From the NCBI GenBank assembly GCA_021158105.1, contig JAGGVH010000034.1, positions 1 through 44,790 on the forward strand: a DNA stretch of 44,790 bases, written 5' to 3'. The position numbers and the translations under genes are program-made. The stretch's first letter is position 1, and every line of letters starts with the position of its first letter. Positions 35,193-44,790 of the stretch are shown here, one piece after another. The notes under the pieces are model-generated. The model had not been told where the DNA came from, ran no database searches, and saw only the letters and a list, made by a program, of their open reading frames with translations. The stretch comes from Microcaldota archaeon. Lineage in GTDB: Archaea > Micrarchaeota > Micrarchaeia > Anstonellales > JAGGVH01.

Positions 35193-35846
35193 ATGATAAC
35201 CAACAAAAACATTGGAAATGTATTGGAAAAGGTTAAGTTTGCAATACATAACAATACAACTGAAGTTGAAAAGCTTGATACTCCTTTCAAGATTTTGATA
35301 GGGACTGTGTTGAGTGCCAGGACTAAAGATGAAACAACGGGCAAGACGGTCGATCGACTCTTTTCAAAAGTGGACAGCCCTAAAAAACTTAGTAACATGA
35401 AAGTTGAGCAGGTTGAAAAACTGATTTATCCAGTAGGTTTTTACAAAACTAAAGCAAAGAATATTGTGAAACTTTCAAAAATATTAGTAAAAGAATACAA
35501 TTCAGAGGTCCCAGACACTATAACAGAATTGGTTAAGTTGCCGGGTGTGGGTAGGAAAACAGCCAACCTTGTGCTCTCATTAGCATTTGATAAGGATGCA
35601 ATATGTGTTGATACTCATGTTCACAGGATAACAAACAGGTGGGGGTATGTTAACACAAAAACGCCTTATGAAACTGAAATGGTCCTTAGAAAAAAACTTC
35701 CAAGGAAGTATTGGAAAGTGATAAACAGTTTGCTAGTCAGGTTTGGGCAGAACATTTGCAGGCCAGTCCGTCCAAAATGTTCAGAATGTCCATTAAAAAA
35801 TGTTTGTGAATATTATAAAAAGCGATGGAAACTAAAACAAGGGTAA
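35193..35846 (+). CDS. nth: Endonuclease III
   Basis: 217 residues. HhH motif LVKLPGVGRKTANLVLSLAF with the catalytic Lys, catalytic Asp in ICVDTHVHRITNRWG, and 4Fe-4S ligands ICRPVRPKCSECPLKNVC. It is a bifunctional glycosylase/AP lyase for oxidised pyrimidines. The ATG at 35193 follows a TATA-like TATTTAAGATTTAAAAC and has no RBS. The end overlaps the acyltransferase gene by 22 bases. Confidence 0.95.
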   Translation: MITNKNIGNVLEKVKFAIHNNTTEVEKLDTPFKILIGTVLSARTKDETTGKTVDRLFSKVDSPKKLSNMKVEQVEKLIYPVGFYKTKAKNIVKLSKILVKEYNSEVPDTITELVKLPGVGRKTANLVLSLAFDKDAICVDTHVHRITNRWGYVNTKTPYETEMVLRKKLPRKYWKVINSLLVRFGQNICRPVRPKCSECPLKNVCEYYKKRWKLKQG

Positions 35847-36739
35847 CATGGATTGATATAATAAAAACCATTGCAATCATTTTAATTGTAGGTTTTCATT
35901 TTGCTTATGAAATTGAAAAAAATCAGTCAATACGATGGATTGGATTTATAGGAGTTTCTCTTTTTTTTATTGCGAGTGGGTTTATGTTATCTTTCAAATA
36001 CCCAGAAATTATATCATTTAATATTAAATGGCTTAAAAAGAGAATCATAAGAATTATTTCAGTGTATTACCCAGCATTAATCATGATTGTGATGTTGTTT
36101 GGGACTCAAACATATTATAAGGGTTTTACTGACTTAATATCCCATTTTCTATTCTTAAATTTCTTATCACATGATACTGCATACTCAATAATAAGTCCCG
36201 CATGGTTTTTTATTCCTTTAATAGGACTTTACTTTTTGTTTCCTTACCTTAACAGATTAATGAAGAATAATTTATTTTTTATTTTAATAATGGGAATAAC
36301 AATTTTGAACCGATTGGTTGAGAATGTATGGGCATCATTCTCACCATTTTTTTTCATAGCAGAGTTTTGTTTTGGAATAGGACTTGCTCAAAAAAAAGAT
36401 TATTTTATATTATTAACTTCATTGTTTGTTAGTGTTGTCAATCCAATAATGGTGATCCCGTATATTTTGTTCTTTATTTTATCTTATATTAAACTAAATA
36501 ACAAATGGTTAAAATTATTGTTTTATACTATTGGTGGTAACACATTTCTAATATTCCTATTTCATGAAAGTGTGATTAAAGTGATATTAAATGAATGGTC
36601 AATATGTCATTTTGGAATATTGCTTTCTTTAATAATCTTATCTGTTTCAATTGGGATTACAATGTTTGTATCAAAATTAATCTTACAAATTTTCATACCC
36701 TTAAATAAGGTTTCCGCTACAACGGAAGAAAATGGCTAA
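35825..36739 (+). CDS. Acyltransferase-3 family membrane protein
   Basis: 304 residues with about nine to ten membrane helices. The N-terminus WIDIIKTIAIILIVGFHFAYE has the conserved His of the OafA/WecH family (membrane O-acyltransferases for sugars and lipids), followed by RWIGFIGVSLFFIASGF. It overlaps nth by 22 bases. Its last codons (LNKVSATTEENG-stop) lie inside the first of two 56-bp direct repeats bracketing the ATPase gene, so the present C-terminus may be part of an insertion boundary. Base composition is more AT-rich than nth. Confidence 0.87.
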   Translation: METKTRVTWIDIIKTIAIILIVGFHFAYEIEKNQSIRWIGFIGVSLFFIASGFMLSFKYPEIISFNIKWLKKRIIRIISVYYPALIMIVMLFGTQTYYKGFTDLISHFLFLNFLSHDTAYSIISPAWFFIPLIGLYFLFPYLNRLMKNNLFFILIMGITILNRLVENVWASFSPFFFIAEFCFGIGLAQKKDYFILLTSLFVSVVNPIMVIPYILFFILSYIKLNNKWLKLLFYTIGGNTFLIFLFHESVIKVILNEWSICHFGILLSLIILSVSIGITMFVSKLILQIFIPLNKVSATTEENG

Positions 36740-36760
36740 ATATTTCCGTTCAAACGGAAA
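36705..36760 (+). repeat. 56-bp direct repeat, copy 1 (ATPase 1 cassette)
   Basis: Bases 36705-36760 match 38068-38123 with one difference (a/c at the 13th base). It contains the acyltransferase stop and two small palindromes: TTCCG...CGGAA and TTTCCGT-TCAA-ACGGAAA. Copy 1 covers the last codons of the ATPase gene (its stop is at 36750). Confidence 0.95.
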
Positions 36761-38042
36761 CGGCAAACAGCGGAAGAGGAATGTTATTATTACTTATAGT
36801 AGCGTTCATAGTGAGAGTATAAATTTTTAATTTTTTATCTTTTCTTTCATTTTTATTTCCACCAACCTCAAAACCAATATCACCTATTATAAAATCTGCA
36901 ATGTGAGAATAAAAAATGTCTTTTTCATATTTTGATAACACTAAGAATACTGCATCTTCTCTTGCATTACCAACCATATCAGAATATCTACCCAAAGATT
37001 TAGACAACATTATCCGAATTGAAGGAGAATAAAAAAACCATTTTAATGGTCTTTTAAACCTTCTTTTTCTACCAGAATACTGTACACTTTTAATAAGCAT
37101 TGCCTTTTCAAACATACCCAACAGTTTTACAACAGTTTCTTTTGATATGCCAATCGTTTGTGATATCGTTTCGATCTTAACACCATCAGAAGGTATTGTT
37201 GAAATAAAATAAATCATCTGCTCCGCCTTTGTTAAAATAGGTGATTCAACATTGGCAAACTTAGATAAATCTTCATAAACAATCCTTTTTATCATACGTT
37301 TGATCGATTCCTCATATTCGTTTTCATTGGACAATTCTAATGAGAAAGGCAAATCATTTTTAATGTATTCATTAAACAGGGCAAACATATCATAATTTTT
37401 GAACATGGACATAACTTGTATGTATTCCTTTTCTAAAGAATGCCATTTTAAAATTTTTTTATGAATTCTTGAAGATAGAGAATCAGGAATATTTATATCA
37501 TATTTTATACTAAGAAATTCTCTAAAACTTAATGGATATACAGGTAAGTCTTTAGCACGCCTTGTCAGTTCAGATTCTTCTAAACCCAATGATGATGAAG
37601 ATGTTGCAATTATTATAAGGTTAGGCCGAGTATCTATCAACATTTTCAATTTTAAATCCCATTTGTCAATATAAGTAATCTCATCCAAAAGAAGAATGTA
37701 CGGTCTATCAAAACCTATCTTTTTTTTGTTTATATAATCAATGCCTTGAATAATATCAATTATATCCATCTTGTTTATGAACATGTCATCCCCTGAAAGA
37801 TAAGTTCGATTAGTTTTATATTTATCATATATTTGATAAAGAAGGGTTGTTTTGCCTGTCCCGCGTAATCCATGAATCAAAACAATCCTATGCCCTTTTT
37901 TCTTTTTTGCATTTTCAATATCATCTATAAGATTTGATAAATAAAACCTGCTTTTTTTTATCTGTTTGAGTTTAATATTGACTAAGATAGGTAATTCGGA
38001 TTGTTTTGTTATTAAATAATCCACAACTTTTTCAGAGTGCAT
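36750..38042 (-). CDS. AAA ATPase of the AAA_14/DUF4143 type (cassette 1)
   Basis: 430 residues. Walker A is HGLRGTGKTTLL and Walker B LLLDEITYIDKW (acidic pair, Trp), followed by the sensor-like IIATSSSS and a winged-helix segment (TISQTIGISKETVVKLLGMFEKAMLI). The C-terminus carries DFIIGDIGFEVGG, the DUF4143 nuclease-like region with the acidic/Glu residues only partly kept. I chose the ATG at 38042, 26 bases after a TATA box; an earlier ATG at 38060 would precede the likely transcription start. The gene fits exactly between two 56-bp repeats, as if a cassette. Archaeal ATPases of this group are often numerous and sporadic. Confidence 0.88.
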   Translation of the reverse strand: MHSEKVVDYLITKQSELPILVNIKLKQIKKSRFYLSNLIDDIENAKKKKGHRIVLIHGLRGTGKTTLLYQIYDKYKTNRTYLSGDDMFINKMDIIDIIQGIDYINKKKIGFDRPYILLLDEITYIDKWDLKLKMLIDTRPNLIIIATSSSSLGLEESELTRRAKDLPVYPLSFREFLSIKYDINIPDSLSSRIHKKILKWHSLEKEYIQVMSMFKNYDMFALFNEYIKNDLPFSLELSNENEYEESIKRMIKRIVYEDLSKFANVESPILTKAEQMIYFISTIPSDGVKIETISQTIGISKETVVKLLGMFEKAMLIKSVQYSGRKRRFKRPLKWFFYSPSIRIMLSKSLGRYSDMVGNAREDAVFLVLSKYEKDIFYSHIADFIIGDIGFEVGGNKNERKDKKLKIYTLTMNATISNNNIPLPLFAVSV

Positions 38043-38067
38043 ATTATATATATTATCCAAAGGCTTT

Positions 38068-38123
38068 ATAAGGTTTCCGCTCCAACGGAAGAAAATGGCT
38101 AAATATTTCCGTTCAAACGGAAA
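38068..38123 (+). repeat. 56-bp direct repeat, copy 2 (ATPase 1 cassette)
   Basis: Second copy, immediately upstream of the TATA box (38063-38070) of ATPase 1 and five bases from the stop of the deaminase gene. In this position the palindromes TTCCG-N6-CGGAA and TTTCCGT-TCAA-ACGGAAA would act as promoter-proximal operators. Confidence 0.95.
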
Positions 38124-38663: not shown

Positions 38664-39596
38664 ATGAACATAATAGTGACAGGCGGTGCAGGATTCATTG
38701 GCAGCCATGTAGTTGATAAGTTAATTGAACATCGTCATAATGTTATGGTCATTGATAACTTATCATTTGGGAAAATGGAAAATATTAATCCCTCTGCAGA
38801 ATTTGTTAAAAAGTCTATACTTGATGATTTGTCACAGGAATTCAACTCGTTCAATCCTGATATAATCATCCACCACGCCGCACAGGTTAGCCTTCGTGAA
38901 TCAATACAAAATCCTATGAATGATGCAGATATAAACATCCTTGGAACGATTAATTTGTTAGAATACTGTAAAAAGTTTGATGTCAAAAAATTTATTTATG
39001 TGTCATCCGTGGCTGTATACGGTGAACCTGAAAAGATCCCAATTGATGAAAACCACCCCACTAAACCCACTGCACCGTATGGTACATCAAAACTGTCAGC
39101 GGAAAAATATGTTGAGATGTATGATAGAATGTATGGAGTGCAACATGTAATATTTAGATATAGTAATATATACGGTCCAAGACAGAATGAAAAGGGCGAG
39201 GCAGGGGTGATTACAATATTTATTAATAATCTGTTGAATGGTAAAGAATGTAAGATTTTTGGTTCTGGTGAGCAGACTAGAGATTTTGTGTATGTTGAAG
39301 ATATTGCGAACGCTAACCTCCTTGCATTAAACAAAGGTAAAGGGATATATGTATTAGGGACGGGTACAGAAATCAGTGTTAATGAATTGTACAACAAAAT
39401 AAAAAGTATGTTGTATAATAAAACAGGAAAAGATTATCCCAAACCCATTTATACCGAATGTGTGGTAGGGGACGTAATGAGATTTGCTGTAGATAGTCAT
39501 AAAGCAAAAGAAGAATTAGGCTGGCAGCCACAAATGGAGTTTGATGAAGGGTTGGATAAGACGATTGAATGGTTTAAGAAAAAGGTGGTAGAATGA
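38664..39596 (+). CDS. NAD-dependent sugar epimerase (UDP-glucose 4-epimerase type)
   Basis: 310 residues. The Rossmann motif TGGAGFIGSHV is at residues 6-16 from the ATG at 38664. The catalytic triad is present as SSVAVYG and YGTSKLSAEKY (Tyr-x3-Lys), and HHAAQVSLRESIQNP is typical of GalE-like short-chain dehydrogenases. Likely makes a UDP-hexose or UDP-HexNAc isomer for surface glycans. It overlaps the glycosyltransferase gene by 4 bases (ATGA). Confidence 0.93.
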   Translation: MNIIVTGGAGFIGSHVVDKLIEHRHNVMVIDNLSFGKMENINPSAEFVKKSILDDLSQEFNSFNPDIIIHHAAQVSLRESIQNPMNDADINILGTINLLEYCKKFDVKKFIYVSSVAVYGEPEKIPIDENHPTKPTAPYGTSKLSAEKYVEMYDRMYGVQHVIFRYSNIYGPRQNEKGEAGVITIFINNLLNGKECKIFGSGEQTRDFVYVEDIANANLLALNKGKGIYVLGTGTEISVNELYNKIKSMLYNKTGKDYPKPIYTECVVGDVMRFAVDSHKAKEELGWQPQMEFDEGLDKTIEWFKKKVVE

Positions 39597-40552
39597 ACAT
39601 TATATTATTGATTGAATTTTTTATTTCATTCTTTGTGACACTTTTGTTCACACCAATCTTGATAAAGAAGTTAAAAGATAGGGGGATAGTAGGCAGGGAT
39701 ATGCATAAACCTGACAGGCCACTTATTCCAGATACTGGCGGGCTTGCTGTAATATTTGGTGTATTGGTTGCAGTGTTGTTTGTCATCGCGTACAATACAT
39801 TTTTTGATGATGGGTTAAATACTATACATTTAATGGTTGGATTGTTAACAATATTAATCTTAGAAATTATTGGGTTCTATGATGACCTTTTTAACATCCC
39901 CCAGTCTATCAAAGCAGTTCTTCCTATGATCGCAGCAATACCCCTCATGGCAATCGCTGCAGGTACGACAACTATGAGTTTTCCAGTGATAGGTGCAGTT
40001 GACTTTGGAATATTTTATGTTCTTGTTTTGATACCATTAGGCATAACTGTTGCTTCAAATTTAACAAACATGTTAGCAGGGTTTAACGGGTCAGAAGTTG
40101 GCATGGGAATCATAATATTTATAACTATGAGTTTAATATTTCTTTCTCATGGTAGTACTGAACCATTAATCATATCCTTAGCTATGTTAGGTGCATTGGC
40201 AGCTTTTATGATGTATAACTGGTATCCTGCTAAGATATTCCCGGGCGACGCCACAACATTCCTGATAGGAGGAACGCTTGCAACTGTTGTCATACTCGGG
40301 AATGCTGAAGCTGCAGGCGCATTGTTAACAATACCTTATGTGATTGACTTTTTTATAAAGGCTAAAAATGGGTTTCCAAAATCATTTGCAATATTTGAGA
40401 ATGGTAAATTATATCCTCCAAAAGAAAGGATACGCGGGCTTGGTGATTTACTTTTAAAAACATTTAATGGCTTGAAAGAAGTTCATTTAACCTTAATACT
40501 TATAGGTATTGAAACAATCGTTGCAATGGTTGTGTTAATATTGTATTTATAA
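39593..40552 (+). CDS. Polyprenyl-phosphate GlcNAc-1-P transferase-like enzyme (Alg7/AglH type)
   Basis: 319 residues with about ten membrane segments. MraY/WecA/Alg7 family motifs are GFYDDLFNIP, NLTNMLAGFNG and NWYPAKIFPGDATT. It loads a HexNAc-1-phosphate on dolichyl/polyprenyl phosphate, the first step of N-glycan or related lipid-linked sugar synthesis; the coupled epimerase probably supplies the nucleotide sugar. The last 16 codons (IGIETIVAMVVLILYL) are repeated as non-coding remnants at 41580-41636 and 43258-43309. Confidence 0.92.
   Translation: MNIILLIEFFISFFVTLLFTPILIKKLKDRGIVGRDMHKPDRPLIPDTGGLAVIFGVLVAVLFVIAYNTFFDDGLNTIHLMVGLLTILILEIIGFYDDLFNIPQSIKAVLPMIAAIPLMAIAAGTTTMSFPVIGAVDFGIFYVLVLIPLGITVASNLTNMLAGFNGSEVGMGIIIFITMSLIFLSHGSTEPLIISLAMLGALAAFMMYNWYPAKIFPGDATTFLIGGTLATVVILGNAEAAGALLTIPYVIDFFIKAKNGFPKSFAIFENGKLYPPKERIRGLGDLLLKTFNGLKEVHLTLILIGIETIVAMVVLILYL
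40450..40552 (+). repeat. 3' end of the GlcNAc-1-P transferase gene (repeat copy 0)
   Basis: This stretch is the functional 3' end of the glycosyltransferase gene. It aligns to 43209-43309 (about 100 bases, several mismatches) and its last ~50 bases to 41580-41636. The other copies still translate to the same final peptide but have no upstream gene. Confidence 0.88.
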
Positions 40553-40553
40553 A

Positions 40554-40571
40554 CGTTCATTATAATGAACG
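40554..40571. promoter_or_regulatory. 18-bp perfect palindrome upstream of the MNT-HEPN pair
   Basis: CGTTCATTATAATGAACG reads the same on both strands. It starts two bases after the glycosyltransferase stop and just before the TATA-like TTTTATATA (40576-40584); a further half-site TTGAACG follows at 40585-40591. A likely operator for the winged-helix antitoxin. Confidence 0.75.
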
Positions 40572-40606
40572 ATAGTTTTATATATTGAACGGTCGTTTAA
40601 AAAATT

Positions 40607-41152
40607 ATGTTATCTATATTTGATAAAAATGCGGGATTTAAGATATTAAAATATTTTTTGCTACATCCCTCTAAAGAAATACATCTAAAAGAAATTGCAA
40701 GGAAAACAAAAACTAGTCCAGGAAGTGTAAAAACATACTGTGATAAATTCAAAAAGAAAAAAATCATTACATCTGAAAAAAAAGGTAATTTGAGGATCAT
40801 AAAGCTAAATAATGACAATCCTTTGGTAAAACAACTAAAAAAAACTTTAATTCTAAGCATGCTTTTTGATAAAGGAATTGAAAAAATATCAAAAAATGAA
40901 ATCTCATTGGTTGTATATGGAAGTTGTGCGTCAGGAGAGTTTGATGAAAGGAGTGACTTAGACATATTAATCATTGGTTCTAAAAAAAATGTTAATTATA
41001 AAGAGTTGTCAAGGATTGAGAAAGAATTAGGGGTTGAAATACAATTAACAGTAATTCCTTATTATGAATGGGAAAAAAGAAAAAAACAAGGAGATGGGTT
41101 TGTGTTTGAAATATTAAAAAATTATATTTTAATTAAAGGTGCAAAATTATGA
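40607..41152 (+). CDS. MNT-type minimal nucleotidyltransferase with N-terminal HTH (antitoxin)
   Basis: 181 residues. An N-terminal winged helix (about 8-65, HLKEIARKTKTSPGSVKTYC) precedes a pol-beta-like NTase with VVYGSCASGEFDERSDLDIL, the GSx10DxD pattern. MNT domains partner with HEPN toxins and can inactivate them by AMPylation. The HTH probably binds the palindrome upstream. Start is leaderless, 27 bases after the TATA-like box. The stop overlaps the HEPN start (ATGA). Confidence 0.9.
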   Translation: MLSIFDKNAGFKILKYFLLHPSKEIHLKEIARKTKTSPGSVKTYCDKFKKKKIITSEKKGNLRIIKLNNDNPLVKQLKKTLILSMLFDKGIEKISKNEISLVVYGSCASGEFDERSDLDILIIGSKKNVNYKELSRIEKELGVEIQLTVIPYYEWEKRKKQGDGFVFEILKNYILIKGAKL

Positions 41153-41580
41153 ATTTTGAAGAATGTGTCAGAAAAAACTTAATCAAAAAAAATTCAAGTG
41201 CAAAAGTAAGAGTTGATAAATCGTTGATGACATCTGAAAGATTTTTAATTGCATCTCAGAAGAACTATGAGATTAAACAGCTTGAAATGACACTAATCGC
41301 CGCCTATAATTCAATATTTCATTCTGCTAGAGCATTACTTTTTTCAAAGGGATATGTAGAAAGAAGCCACTATTGTTTATTTATTGCTTTGAAAGAAATG
41401 TATAAAGATGATCATAAAATGTCAGAAATATTGCCCAGAATTGACAAAATAAGAGTGTCACGACATAACACACAATATTCTGGAGAAATTGTATTAGAAA
41501 AAGAGGCTGAATTTGTGATTGAAACTGCAGAAGATTTCCTAACGCTTGTGAAAAACATCCTTAAAAAATCCAAACATTGA
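41149..41580 (+). CDS. HEPN-domain RNase toxin
   Basis: 143 residues, an all-helical HEPN domain. The Rx4-6H-like motif near the C-terminal helix is KIRVSRHNTQY (residues about 103-113). HEPN proteins in HEPN-MNT pairs are metal-independent RNases that act as growth inhibitors. Coupled to the MNT gene by a 4-base overlap. The stop is followed at once by a repeated fragment of the glycosyltransferase 3' end. Confidence 0.9.
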   Translation: MNFEECVRKNLIKKNSSAKVRVDKSLMTSERFLIASQKNYEIKQLEMTLIAAYNSIFHSARALLFSKGYVERSHYCLFIALKEMYKDDHKMSEILPRIDKIRVSRHNTQYSGEIVLEKEAEFVIETAEDFLTLVKNILKKSKH

Positions 41581-41712
41581 TACTAATAGGTATTGAAACA
41601 ATCGTTGCAATGGTTGTGTTGATCCTTTACCTGTAAATGATAGTAACTATTTCTAAAAAATTTAAAATTATAATAAACATATTCACCAAGTGAATAATTC
41701 AGTAAATGAATA
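41580..41712 (+). repeat. Remnant of the glycosyltransferase 3' end plus palindromes (copy 1)
   Basis: The first 57 bases encode the same C-terminal peptide IGIETIVAMVVLILYL-stop as the intact gene. The following 76 bases match 43310-43385 with a few changes. They end with two palindromes, ATTCAC-CAA-GTGAAT (41681-41695) and ATTCA-GTAAA-TGAAT (41697-41711). The rest up to 41788 shows no gene; it holds a short imperfect repeat AGTAAGTTGCTTACT. Confidence 0.9.
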
Positions 41713-41788
41713 AAAACAAAACAAGATTTACTAACCCTTTGAGTAAGTTGCTTACTCCCACAATAAGCAAAAGATAATTTGCCAAAAT

Positions 41789-41819
41789 GTATCGGTCAAA
41801 TTTTATATTTTTGACCGAT
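41789..41819 (+). repeat. 31-bp direct repeat with inverted arms, copy 1 (ATPase 2 cassette)
   Basis: Identical to 43151-43181. It contains a 29-base inverted repeat with 10-base arms ATCGGTCAAA/TTTGACCGAT around TTTTATATT. This copy sits five bases after the end of the ATPase 2 gene. Confidence 0.95.
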
Positions 41820-41823
41820 GAAC

Positions 41824-43119
41824 TTAAAAATTTAATAACCACTTCCATATGGGCACTACTTTAATTTTATACTCATCAACCTTAAAGCTGTCCTCTTGGT
41901 TATATGTGACAATTAAACCTTCTTTTATGTTCAACCCTTTCATTGCTGTTTTTAACCCATTGACTTCCCTATTGCGATTTTCATCAGTCAACTCCCAAGT
42001 CACCTGAATCGCAACTTTATTTCTTCCTAAAGAATCATACAATATAAAATCACATTCATTACTATTCTGTGCATAAAAAATGCTTTTTAAACCATATCTT
42101 CTCAAGAGTTCAATAAAAACGATGTTTTCTAAGAAATGTCCTTTGTTTTCCTGAATGTTGAAACCTGCTACTGAACTCAATCCTGGGTCTACCACATATA
42201 TTTTCACTTTTGAGCGTATTTGTTTCTTCACAGAAAAATCAAACTTTTGAAGAGGGTAAAACAGGTCTGCAATCTTCAAATACCCAATATATCTATTAAC
42301 TGAATCTTCTGAAAGGTTGAGAATGCCCGCCAATCTCCTTTGCGAAATCTGTGTAGCTATGTTTGACAAAAGAAGATAAGATAGATCCTCAACTTCCTTG
42401 CTTTTCTTTAATGAATACTTCAAAACTATGTCTTTATACAATATTGTTGATAAATAATTTTGCAGAATCGCTTTTTCCTTAGTCAATACATATTTTGGAA
42501 AACCACCATAATAAATGTATTTATTAAGATATCTAATAATATTTATTTTGTTTTTTAATAATTCTTTGTATGAGTGAATCTCTAATCCATTGAAACCCAA
42601 ATATTCCTTAAATGAAAGAGGGAACACTGTCATATGAAGAAATCTTCCTGATAATGCAGTAATGTCATCTTCAGCAATCACCTTTAACCCTGAACTTGTA
42701 ACAATCTGTTTTATTTTGGTGGTCTCAGCAATGTATCTTACCACACTTTGCCAGCCTTTAATATTATCAATCTCGTCCCATATAATATATTTTGGACCTT
42801 TGGGATTTATCCTCACTCTGTAGAGTTCTATAACCTTTAGTAGGTCATCCCTGTTCAGGCTTTTTATTCCGGGGTCCTCAGCATTAACAAACAAAAAATC
42901 TTCAGGAACTGCTTTCTTGTTTTTTATCAAATGCTCTGCAAACAGGTAAGTTAACGCAGATTTACCACTTCGCCTAACACCTGTAATAATTACTATGTTT
43001 TCTGATTTGAGTAGTTTATTCATCCTTTCAGTATACAGGTTACGAGGCAAATATTTTTGATTAAATTCACCCCAAAGATTTCTTTTACTTAATATATTCA
43101 AAATAAAATCCTCTTGCAT
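41824..43119 (-). CDS. AAA ATPase with DUF4143/PD-(D/E)xK-like C-terminus (cassette 2)
   Basis: 431 residues from the ATG at 43119, 26 bases after a TATA-like box; ATGs at 43134 and 43161 are alternatives. Walker A is ITGVRRSGKSAL, Walker B YIIWDEIDNIKGW, then a sensor TSSGLK, FPLSFKEYL, and a winged helix (RRLAGILNLSEDSVNRYI). The C-terminus ECDFILYDSLGRNKVAIQV has the E-x-D...Q-V layout of the DUF4143 nuclease-like region (Lys replaced by Gln). Bracketed by the 31-bp repeats. Related to, but distinct from, the ATPase at 36750. Confidence 0.9.
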   Translation of the reverse strand: MQEDFILNILSKRNLWGEFNQKYLPRNLYTERMNKLLKSENIVIITGVRRSGKSALTYLFAEHLIKNKKAVPEDFLFVNAEDPGIKSLNRDDLLKVIELYRVRINPKGPKYIIWDEIDNIKGWQSVVRYIAETTKIKQIVTSSGLKVIAEDDITALSGRFLHMTVFPLSFKEYLGFNGLEIHSYKELLKNKINIIRYLNKYIYYGGFPKYVLTKEKAILQNYLSTILYKDIVLKYSLKKSKEVEDLSYLLLSNIATQISQRRLAGILNLSEDSVNRYIGYLKIADLFYPLQKFDFSVKKQIRSKVKIYVVDPGLSSVAGFNIQENKGHFLENIVFIELLRRYGLKSIFYAQNSNECDFILYDSLGRNKVAIQVTWELTDENRNREVNGLKTAMKGLNIKEGLIVTYNQEDSFKVDEYKIKVVPIWKWLLNF

Positions 43120-43150
43120 AGAATAATTGTACATCAAAAAGTATAAAAGT

Positions 43151-43181
43151 GTATCGGTCAAATTTTATATTTTTGACCGAT
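43151..43181 (+). repeat. 31-bp direct repeat with inverted arms, copy 2 (ATPase 2 cassette)
   Basis: The second copy lies immediately upstream of the TATA-like TTTTATAC (43142-43149, minus strand) of ATPase 2, so its 10-base inverted arms are placed as a promoter operator. Confidence 0.95.
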
Positions 43182-43208
43182 AGAGTATTAAATAATCCGT
43201 TAAGAAAA

Positions 43209-43385
43209 ACTTCTAAAAATATTTAATGGCTTGAGAAAAGTTCATTTAACCTTTATTAATAGGTATTGAAACAATTGTTGCAATGGTTGTGTTGGCCCTT
43301 TACCTGTAAATACTGGCAACTATTTCTAAAAAATTTAAAATCATAACAAATATATTCACCAAGTGAATAATTCAGTAAATGAATA
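43209..43385 (+). repeat. Remnant of the glycosyltransferase 3' end plus palindromes (copy 2)
   Basis: Contains a longer version of the glycosyltransferase 3' end (43209-43309, last residue block IGIETIVAMVVLALYL-stop), then the same downstream segment as copy 1, ending with ATTCAC-CAA-GTGAAT (43354-43368) and ATTCA-GTAAA-TGAAT (43370-43384). These palindromes lie just before the TATA-like box of ATPase 3. Confidence 0.92.
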
Positions 43386-43417: not shown

Positions 43418-44790
43418 ATGAAATTTATAGATAGAACAAGTGAATTAAAATTACTTAAAAAAGCAAAAGAATTGTCAAATAAAAAACTATACAGTATTGT
43501 GATATATGGATTGAGAAGAGTAGGGAAAACACGTTTGGTACTTGAATTCACAGAACCTAATGATATCTATTTTTTTGTCAACAAGGATAAAACTTCTAAT
43601 TCATTATTAGAAGAATATGAAAACCAGTTGAAAATTAAAGGTATTATAACAAAACTAGAAAAATTAAATAATTGGAATGATTTTTTCTCAATTATTTTTG
43701 AAAGGTTTAATGGGACGGTTGTCTTTGATGAATTCCAAAATTTTTCCTCAGTGGCACCAGAGGTATACGGTATATTACAAGAAAAAATAGATACTTATGA
43801 ACATAAAAAAGGATTACTTTTAATTTTTTTAGGGTCATTGATAGGTGTGATAAAGAAAACATTTGAAGACAATAAACTACCTCTATACGGCCGGGTTAAA
43901 AGAAAATTATTTTTAAAACCATTATCATTTAAACATTCCATCCAATTTTACGACTTATTAAAAATATCTGCTTTTGATGACTGGATAAGATTATACTCTG
44001 TGTTTGGTGGTTTTCCAAAGTATTATGTAGCAATTGAAGATGAGCAATTAATCGGCAAAGATTTTTACATAATCATGGACGAATTCTTTTTTGAAGAGAA
44101 TGCATTGTTTGAAAATGAGGTCCACTCAATATTGTCATTAGAATTTGGAAAGAGAACAGGGATATATTATGATATTTTAAGTGCTATCGCCAATGGAAAC
44201 ACATCACCGTCTAAAATATCAGGATATGTAAATAGGAAAGTAACTTCTATTACAAGACATCTAAATGAATTAATCAACAGATATAATATTATAGAGAAAG
44301 AACAACCATTCTTTGGGGGGCGAGCAATATTAAAGATTTCACATCCTTTAATGAAATTTTGGTTTACTTATTTTTATAAAAATTTATCATTGTATTTAAA
44401 ACATGACAAATTATTCATAAGAGATGTAAAAAAAGATCTTGAAAGATATGTAGGTAAAGGTTTTGAAGATGTTTGTAGGGAATACCTATATGAAAAAGGA
44501 TATATTGTTGGCAGACAATGGGGTAAATTTAAAGGAGAAAAAGGAAAAAATACATATGAGATAGACATTGTTGCAGTAAAAGATAAAATTATAAAATTTG
44601 GTGAATGTAAATGGAGTGACAATGTTGATGGCAACATAATTATAAATCAATTGAAAAAAAAGGTAGCATATATACAATCATCAAAATTATCTGATTACAA
44701 AATCAAATATATTCTTTTTGCAAAATCCTTTAAAATAAGACCTAAAAATGTAGAATGTGTCGATTTAAAGCAAATGGAGAATTTCTTTAA
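43418..44790 (+). CDS. Archaeal ATPase (PF01637/DUF234 type), 3'-truncated by window end
   Basis: Open from the ATG at 43418 to the last base (457 codons and two bases), so its end is outside the window. Walker A is YGLRRVGKTRLV and Walker B VVFDEFQNF; the arginine/sensor region LFLGSLIGVI and the wHTH SPSKISGYVNRKVTSITRHL follow. The C-terminal DUF234 region has the PD-(D/E)xK-like EIDIVAVKDKIIKFGECKW (Asp, then Glu-x-Lys). A TATA-like TTTTTTAAAG at 43387-43396 puts the transcription start at the ATG. This is a STAND-related archaeal family with many lineage-specific copies. An antisense ORF at 44374-44637 is a shadow. Confidence 0.92.
   Translation, partial: MKFIDRTSELKLLKKAKELSNKKLYSIVIYGLRRVGKTRLVLEFTEPNDIYFFVNKDKTSNSLLEEYENQLKIKGIITKLEKLNNWNDFFSIIFERFNGTVVFDEFQNFSSVAPEVYGILQEKIDTYEHKKGLLLIFLGSLIGVIKKTFEDNKLPLYGRVKRKLFLKPLSFKHSIQFYDLLKISAFDDWIRLYSVFGGFPKYYVAIEDEQLIGKDFYIIMDEFFFEENALFENEVHSILSLEFGKRTGIYYDILSAIANGNTSPSKISGYVNRKVTSITRHLNELINRYNIIEKEQPFFGGRAILKISHPLMKFWFTYFYKNLSLYLKHDKLFIRDVKKDLERYVGKGFEDVCREYLYEKGYIVGRQWGKFKGEKGKNTYEIDIVAVKDKIIKFGECKWSDNVDGNIIINQLKKKVAYIQSSKLSDYKIKYILFAKSFKIRPKNVECVDLKQMENFF

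Follow-up and report, generated by a model that had tools for sequence, protein, structure and literature searches.

In the lambda immunity region, cI is flanked by OL and OR, and in the pdif/Xer modules of Acinetobacter plasmids, sites of about 28 bp with inverted arms flank single genes and have a consensus that is common to all modules. Here we describe archaeal and bacterial genes with a comparable layout, in which an ATPase of the PDC-S01 type lies between two copies of a sequence that appears to be its own. PDC-S01, which carries the Pfam domains AAA_14 and DUF4143, presumably corresponds to COG1373. According to the part of the PDC-S01 paper used here (NAR 2026, PMC12988326), it is an ATPase fused to a PD-(D/E)XK domain, ranks fourth in frequency among the defences of prokaryotes and is reported among the most abundant candidate defence families of bacteria and archaea, with validation pending for most such candidates.

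The window, that is, the whole stretch of 44,790 nucleotides that was analysed, is the complete contig 11 of the genome (962 kb, 50 contigs) of an archaeon that probably belongs to the Micrarchaeota. Sequence comparison around the ATPase 2 gene (41824-43119, minus strand) identified a 29-bp palindrome, ATCGGTCAAA-N9-TTTGACCGAT, in two copies at 41791-41819 and 43153-43181. Exact identity of the copies covers 32 bp on the minus strand, 41788-41819 for the candidate downstream operator and 43150-43181 for the candidate upstream operator, and over a longer stretch 35 of 36 bp match. The identical repeats that the earlier note had placed around ATPase 2 are thus present, as two copies in direct orientation, but their length is 32 bp and not the 31 bp given there. 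With up to three mismatches allowed, these remained the only two sites in the window against a chance expectation of 0.00, which excludes a chance palindrome, and they are also the only exact copies in the whole genome. CRISPR-like or REP-like spread was rejected on the same grounds, as the site is not spread in the genome. The repeat folds strongly as a single strand (z = -6.8).

The two copies are positioned closely with respect to the gene. The downstream copy begins 4 bases beyond the stop codon (41824) and lies between ATPase 2 and a convergent HEPN gene (41149-41580). The upstream copy stops 1 base short of a TATA-like box read from the sequence at 43141-43148 (GTATAAAA; TTTTATAC on the minus strand), in agreement with the earlier claim that one copy sits just before the TATA box, and this box is about 25 bp upstream of a conserved ATG at 43119. 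While the longest open reading frame spans 41824-43161 on the minus strand, its residue M15 is the first conserved methionine and is nearly invariant among 66 relatives, so translation probably starts at 43119. Together these positions are compatible with a leaderless archaeal gene whose putative operator abuts the core promoter, and a gene-specific dyad at the core promoter is the hallmark of an autoregulated gene with a private operator.

ATPase 2 contains AAA_14 and DUF4143 domains (Pfam) and matches the PADLOC profile PDC-S01 over residues 28-444 of 445 (E = 5e-100). ATPase 1 matches the same profile (E = 3e-29) and ATPase 3 matches PDC-S27, which makes these proteins candidate defence ATPases of the PDC-S01/S27 type. 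An AF2 model of ATPase 2 (pLDDT 93.7) contains a helix-turn-helix-plus-wing (wHTH) segment at about residues 254-323; in the PDB it comes closest to Orc1/Cdc6 bound to origin DNA and to STAND ATPases, all at TM < 0.45, and TnsC is among the structural neighbours. In the nuclease-like part, ATPase 2 has Q-V-T in place of the expected (D/E)-x-K. ATPase 2 lacks the canonical PD-(D/E)XK lysine, which only 2 of 66 relatives have, and K320, E345 and D371 are invariant. Additionally, three bracketed ATPases of the same genome lack DUF4143 altogether and end in an MCM_C-like winged helix, which indicates that the plan goes with the ATPase and winged-helix part and not with the nuclease part.

A sister cassette is found at ATPase 1 (36750-38060, minus strand; AAA_14/DUF4143). 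Its candidate upstream operator is a double dyad at 38068-38123 (minus strand) with centres about 32 bp apart, and the candidate downstream copy at 36705-36760 (minus strand) overlaps the ATPase 1 stop codon. An acyltransferase ORF (35825-36739) terminates within this downstream repeat, as if the cassette had given it its last codons. Both cassettes stand tail-to-tail with a neighbour gene. ATPase 3 (43418-44790, plus strand; ATPase_2/DUF234) runs to the contig end and is preceded by a palindrome, TATTCACCAAGTGAATA, at 43353-43369 (plus strand). A second copy of this palindrome at 41680-41696 belongs to a duplicated stretch B (41573-41712, plus strand), made up of the tail of a Glycos_transf_4 gene and the ATPase 3 palindrome.

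The 3' tail of the Glycos_transf_4 gene (39593-40552) occurs twice more downstream, within 40450-43385 of the window: the original tail A lies at 40450-40553, followed by B and by a copy C at 43209-43385. Tails A and B are separated by a nucleotidyltransferase/HEPN pair, and B and C by ATPase 2; this layout is one of repeated insertion at the 3' end of the Glycos_transf_4 gene. In genome G009 (contig 4), the gene is followed at a distance of about 3 kb by a 58-aa remnant of the tail, and in the same-genus genome G001, which was examined for an empty site of the ATPase 2 cassette, the genes that follow the locus differ from those in the window. A perfect palindrome, CGTTCATTATAATGAACG, at 40554-40571, just upstream of the nucleotidyltransferase gene (40607-41152), is possibly the operator of the toxin-antitoxin-like nucleotidyltransferase/HEPN pair.

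The earlier note had proposed a genome-wide search for ATPase genes flanked by identical inverted repeats. Profile searches gave 25 matches to DUF4143 and 41 to AAA_14 in the archaeon's genome, and these regions were compared along with 60 ATPase regions from order-level relatives and with members from other phyla; the taxonomic breadth of the relatives is biased toward the subfamily of the alignment used as the scan query. In the stricter flank test, 35 of 102 ATPases reached a score of at least 20 versus 4 of 434 other ORFs of the same loci, and mismatched flank pairs seldom reached 15. A second test used a cut-off of 15, which 1% of mismatched pairs pass (99% quantile of the null, 14). A downstream match to the gene's own upstream flank recurred in 36 of 96 ATPases of the archaeon's order and in 13 of 86 from other phyla, counts that include non-operators (gene-tail duplications in L153, a neighbour's promoter at L080 6446-7756), so that the true number of operators is somewhat lower. 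The matches were in direct orientation in 35 of the 36 cases in the order (47 of 49 overall) and fell mostly between -48 and +22 relative to the stop codon. About 60% of the order's ATPases have no detectable downstream copy, and the downstream copy is therefore not essential. With only two genomic copies of the ATPase 2 site, and with the excess over control ORFs, the repeats are not the common intergenic element unrelated to ATPase genes that the earlier note had named as the refuting outcome.

The ATPase at L080 6446-7756 was rejected as an operator example. It lies between an HTH gene and its promoter (L080:6355-8406, G000 contig 20; L184:3943-4013; L280), with about 69 bp of that promoter duplicated on both sides of it. 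The repeat is thus the neighbour gene's promoter, and G009 and G001 have this promoter and the HTH gene with no ATPase there. At two loci of G008 (L160:1500-2700 and L188:4000-5350), ATPase genes adjoin DNA that repeats about every 105 bp.

The paired sites differ from one cassette to the next. For 14 repeats from the archaeon's own genome, scores within a cassette were 29-68, while the mean between cassettes was 7.0, compared with 6.7 for shuffled repeats. Cross-similarity at the level of shuffled sequence agrees with the view that the repeat of ATPase 2 is unrelated to that of ATPase 1. One genome of this lineage holds more than 12 mutually dissimilar candidate ATPase switches. The proposal that each ATPase owns a private site is thereby upheld by the many cassettes in the genome and their orthogonal sequences, as well as by the co-variation of operator and protein described below.

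Many members from both Micrarchaeota and Bacteroidota carry paired or arrayed dyads as their upstream element. Among strong upstream direct repeats, the spacing was 32 or 33 bp in 22 of 25 cases in Micrarchaeota and in 32 of 34 cases from other phyla, chiefly Bacteroidota, a period of roughly three helical turns. Equally strong upstream repeats were found at only 2-3% of control ORFs, and most of the controls with a 32-33-bp spacing have a 5' region in common with an ATPase. ATPase 2 itself has a single, widely spaced dyad, unlike the common 32-33-bp pair, and the members on Acinetobacter plasmids have no clear dyad array, so the plan is not universal. A relative is found on 175 Acinetobacter plasmid records; on plasmids such as L314, L316, L317 and L319 a PDC-S01-like ATPase lies beside DUF4236, WYL and DUF1819 genes, and we take the WYL/DUF1819 neighbourhood to be BREX-like.

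The array is also positioned at the promoter. Outside Micrarchaeota, its end adjoins the Bacteroidota -7 box TAnnTTTG in 24 of 49 cases, where shuffles give 3%; among archaeal cases it adjoins a TATA-like box in 23 of 34, where shuffles give 30%. Furthermore, the more alike two proteins are, the more alike are their operators, even at less than 50% protein identity (Mantel p = 0.002), and the correlation holds between Micrarchaeota and other phyla (p = 0.012), with phylogeny and base composition as partial confounders; it lends indirect support to the predicted binding of the dyad and repression by the protein. In a block-wise analysis, operator similarity was matched most closely by a protein block that adjoins Walker B and not by the wHTH, so the wHTH is a candidate DNA-reading domain.

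We favour, with a probability of about 0.55, the reading that the ATPase represses its own gene via a private operator and that the downstream copy is a second operator acting by looping or bracketing. The cassette would consist of a DNA-binding AAA/STAND-type ATPase together with its private operator, placed at the promoter and again behind the stop codon. The ATPase, probably by means of its winged helix, would bind the dyad beside the TATA box and, once bound, would block or gate its own transcription. The downstream copy would serve as a second cognate operator, in concerted evolution with the first; protein on both ends would most likely enclose the gene in a loop of about 1.4 kb, and this loop may tighten or switch autorepression, in the manner of CI at lambda OL and OR. 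Private sequences would prevent cross-regulation among the paralogues of one genome and newly arriving cassettes. The anatomy gives good support to predicted autorepression through the upstream copy, and looping or bracketing would be the best fit for the role of the second copy. Direct orientation in 35 of 36 cases is needless for looping, however, and points to a mechanism of duplication. Other points that weigh against this reading are the many members with no downstream copy, the single dyad of ATPase 2, the position of the co-varying protein block and the Acinetobacter members with no clear array.

The relationship between the two copies was followed in six homologous pairs of cassettes from different genomes that retain copies at both gene ends. 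With boundaries set by hand, the copies within a genome were 88-98% identical in pairs 1, 2 and 4, compared with 71-84% for homologous copies; pair 6 was identical throughout and pairs 3 and 5 were mixed. Homogenisation in L088/L139 also takes in the spacer that separates the dyads, which indicates that DNA is copied between the ends or re-duplicated, and both processes are compatible with a functional second operator. Two cassettes with 93% DNA identity occur in genomes of different families between unrelated flanks, where similarity extends from the first base of the 5' repeat to about 18 bp past the 3' repeat. Similarly, in L077/L144, L206/L219 and L213/L227 the upstream array and gene were transferred as one, and blocks shared among Acinetobacter plasmids run from about -110 to the stop codon. 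At the level of sequence, these comparisons demonstrate that genes and their predicted operators travel jointly between distant genomes. No short TSD was seen by eye at L080/L139, and the long duplications B and C surround the ATPase 2 cassette.

Such joint transfer would also be expected if the two copies were recombination sites, so that the cassette exits as a one-copy circle and re-enters by crossover, through host homologous recombination or some other enzyme, as a one-gene mobile unit. Consistent with this are the direct repeats, the homogenisation of copies within genomes (inter-dyad spacer included), the limits of the 93%-identical cassettes at or near the repeats and, in other pairs, transfer blocks of a similar kind that reach from about -110 to the stop codon. 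Several of these blocks, however, entirely lack a downstream copy, the at most 5 candidates scored per genome included no empty site that carries one private copy, and the ATPase 2 site occurs only twice in its genome. The cassette contains no recombinase, and there was no sign of a dedicated recombinase for the ATPase cassettes. Excision driven by the nuclease is less likely, as most members lack the canonical catalytic lysine and three of the bracketed ATPases are without a nuclease domain. Excision and integration at the DNA level are possible in light of the direct repeats, concerted evolution and horizontally moving units, but as an account of the two copies we consider recombination unlikely.

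We are more doubtful still that the downstream copy is a functionless relic of a decayed operator-gene-operator-gene tandem duplication. The direct orientation fits such an origin, and tandem ATPase arrays do exist: at L153 (G008 contig 26, 7864-12043), ATPases in tandem are 89-95% identical over about 220-250 bp of their 3' ends and strongly diverged over the remainder, which suggests exchange of C-terminal ends. Additionally, the downstream operator of a Bacteroidales ATPase (L204:5253-5439) runs on for about 125 bp into what is a decayed 5' coding region of that ATPase, and this predicted operator is a remnant of tandem duplication. In Micrarchaeota, by contrast, the repeat usually does not reach the coding start, lies close against the stop codon and is often >90% identical between the ends, and copies at both ends have been kept in homologues from different families.

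It is quite improbable that the downstream copy acts as an insulator or terminator, with bound protein or an RNA hairpin halting read-through into the neighbour. The position at the stop codon, the tail-to-tail arrangement of both window cassettes and the strong fold of the repeat would suit this role, yet the orientation of the next gene is not predictive in Micrarchaeota (convergent/co-directional, 19/14 with a copy and 25/30 without), and the upstream copy, being before the TATA box, is probably not transcribed, which makes a shared RNA role unlikely. We give little credence to the idea that the cassettes are one-gene replicons or integrative units, in which an Orc1/Cdc6-like ATPase would use the dyads as operator, origin-like and integration site at once, and a circle of about 1.3 kb with operator and gene would form, then replicate or spread and integrate again, with two homogenised copies in direct orientation as the outcome. 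A nuclease or transposase element whose terminal sites are cut by the PD-(D/E)XK-like domain in the manner of TnsA/TnsC is barely credible: an AAA ATPase, a PD-(D/E)XK fold, flanking sites, the TnsC neighbour and the three invariant residues favour it, but the ends are direct and not inverted, the element has not multiplied in the genome, the canonical lysine is missing and some bracketed members have no nuclease domain.

Comparison of sequences thus establishes paired sites, privacy, recurrence in the family, promoter position, phasing, co-variation, concerted evolution and joint transfer; about one in three members of the order have predicted operators on both sides of the gene, and several show concerted evolution. 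For PDC-S01, a private phased operator, often doubled, offers a direct handle, since it predicts the DNA bound by each ATPase and its silencing. Private operators also bear on how many ATPase copies coexist in a 1-Mb genome, and the cassettes provide many natural protein/site pairs for the study of DNA recognition by this class of ATPase.

Among known systems, pdif/Xer modules resemble these cassettes in having sites with inverted arms around a single gene, but the sites of the ATPase cassettes have no shared consensus and are unrelated (cross-similarity at the shuffled level). REPtrons and IS200-IS605 likewise flank a gene with palindromes, whereas the ATPase cassette has no Y1 transposase and no copies spread in the genome, and its dyads lie at promoters. 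Transposons of the DDE/HUH/TnsABC type differ in their inverted terminal repeats, the copies in the order being direct in all but one of 36 cases, and in their intact transposase or nuclease catalytic residues, which ATPase 2 does not have. ATPase 2 gives a full-length match to the PDC-S01 profile and belongs to the same family as ATPase 1; the part of the PDC-S01 paper used here (PMC12988326) makes no mention of private operators, 32-33-bp phasing or bracketing, and a search of the open-licence literature for the operator plan of these ATPases found nothing relevant. Orc1/Cdc6 (PDB 2qby) is the top structural neighbour and combines an AAA domain with a winged helix on specific repeats, but at TM 0.31-0.35, and ATPase 2 adds DUF4143 and private sites at both gene ends. 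Compared with lambda, the ATPase cassettes have an AAA ATPase in place of CI, near-identical direct copies, no lytic genes and looping that is predicted. The likeness is that a regulator gene lies between two sets of its own dyads, 1-2 kb apart, with private specificity like that of immunity groups, and in 36 of 96 members of the order two predicted cognate operator sets bracket the gene in this lambda-like fashion.
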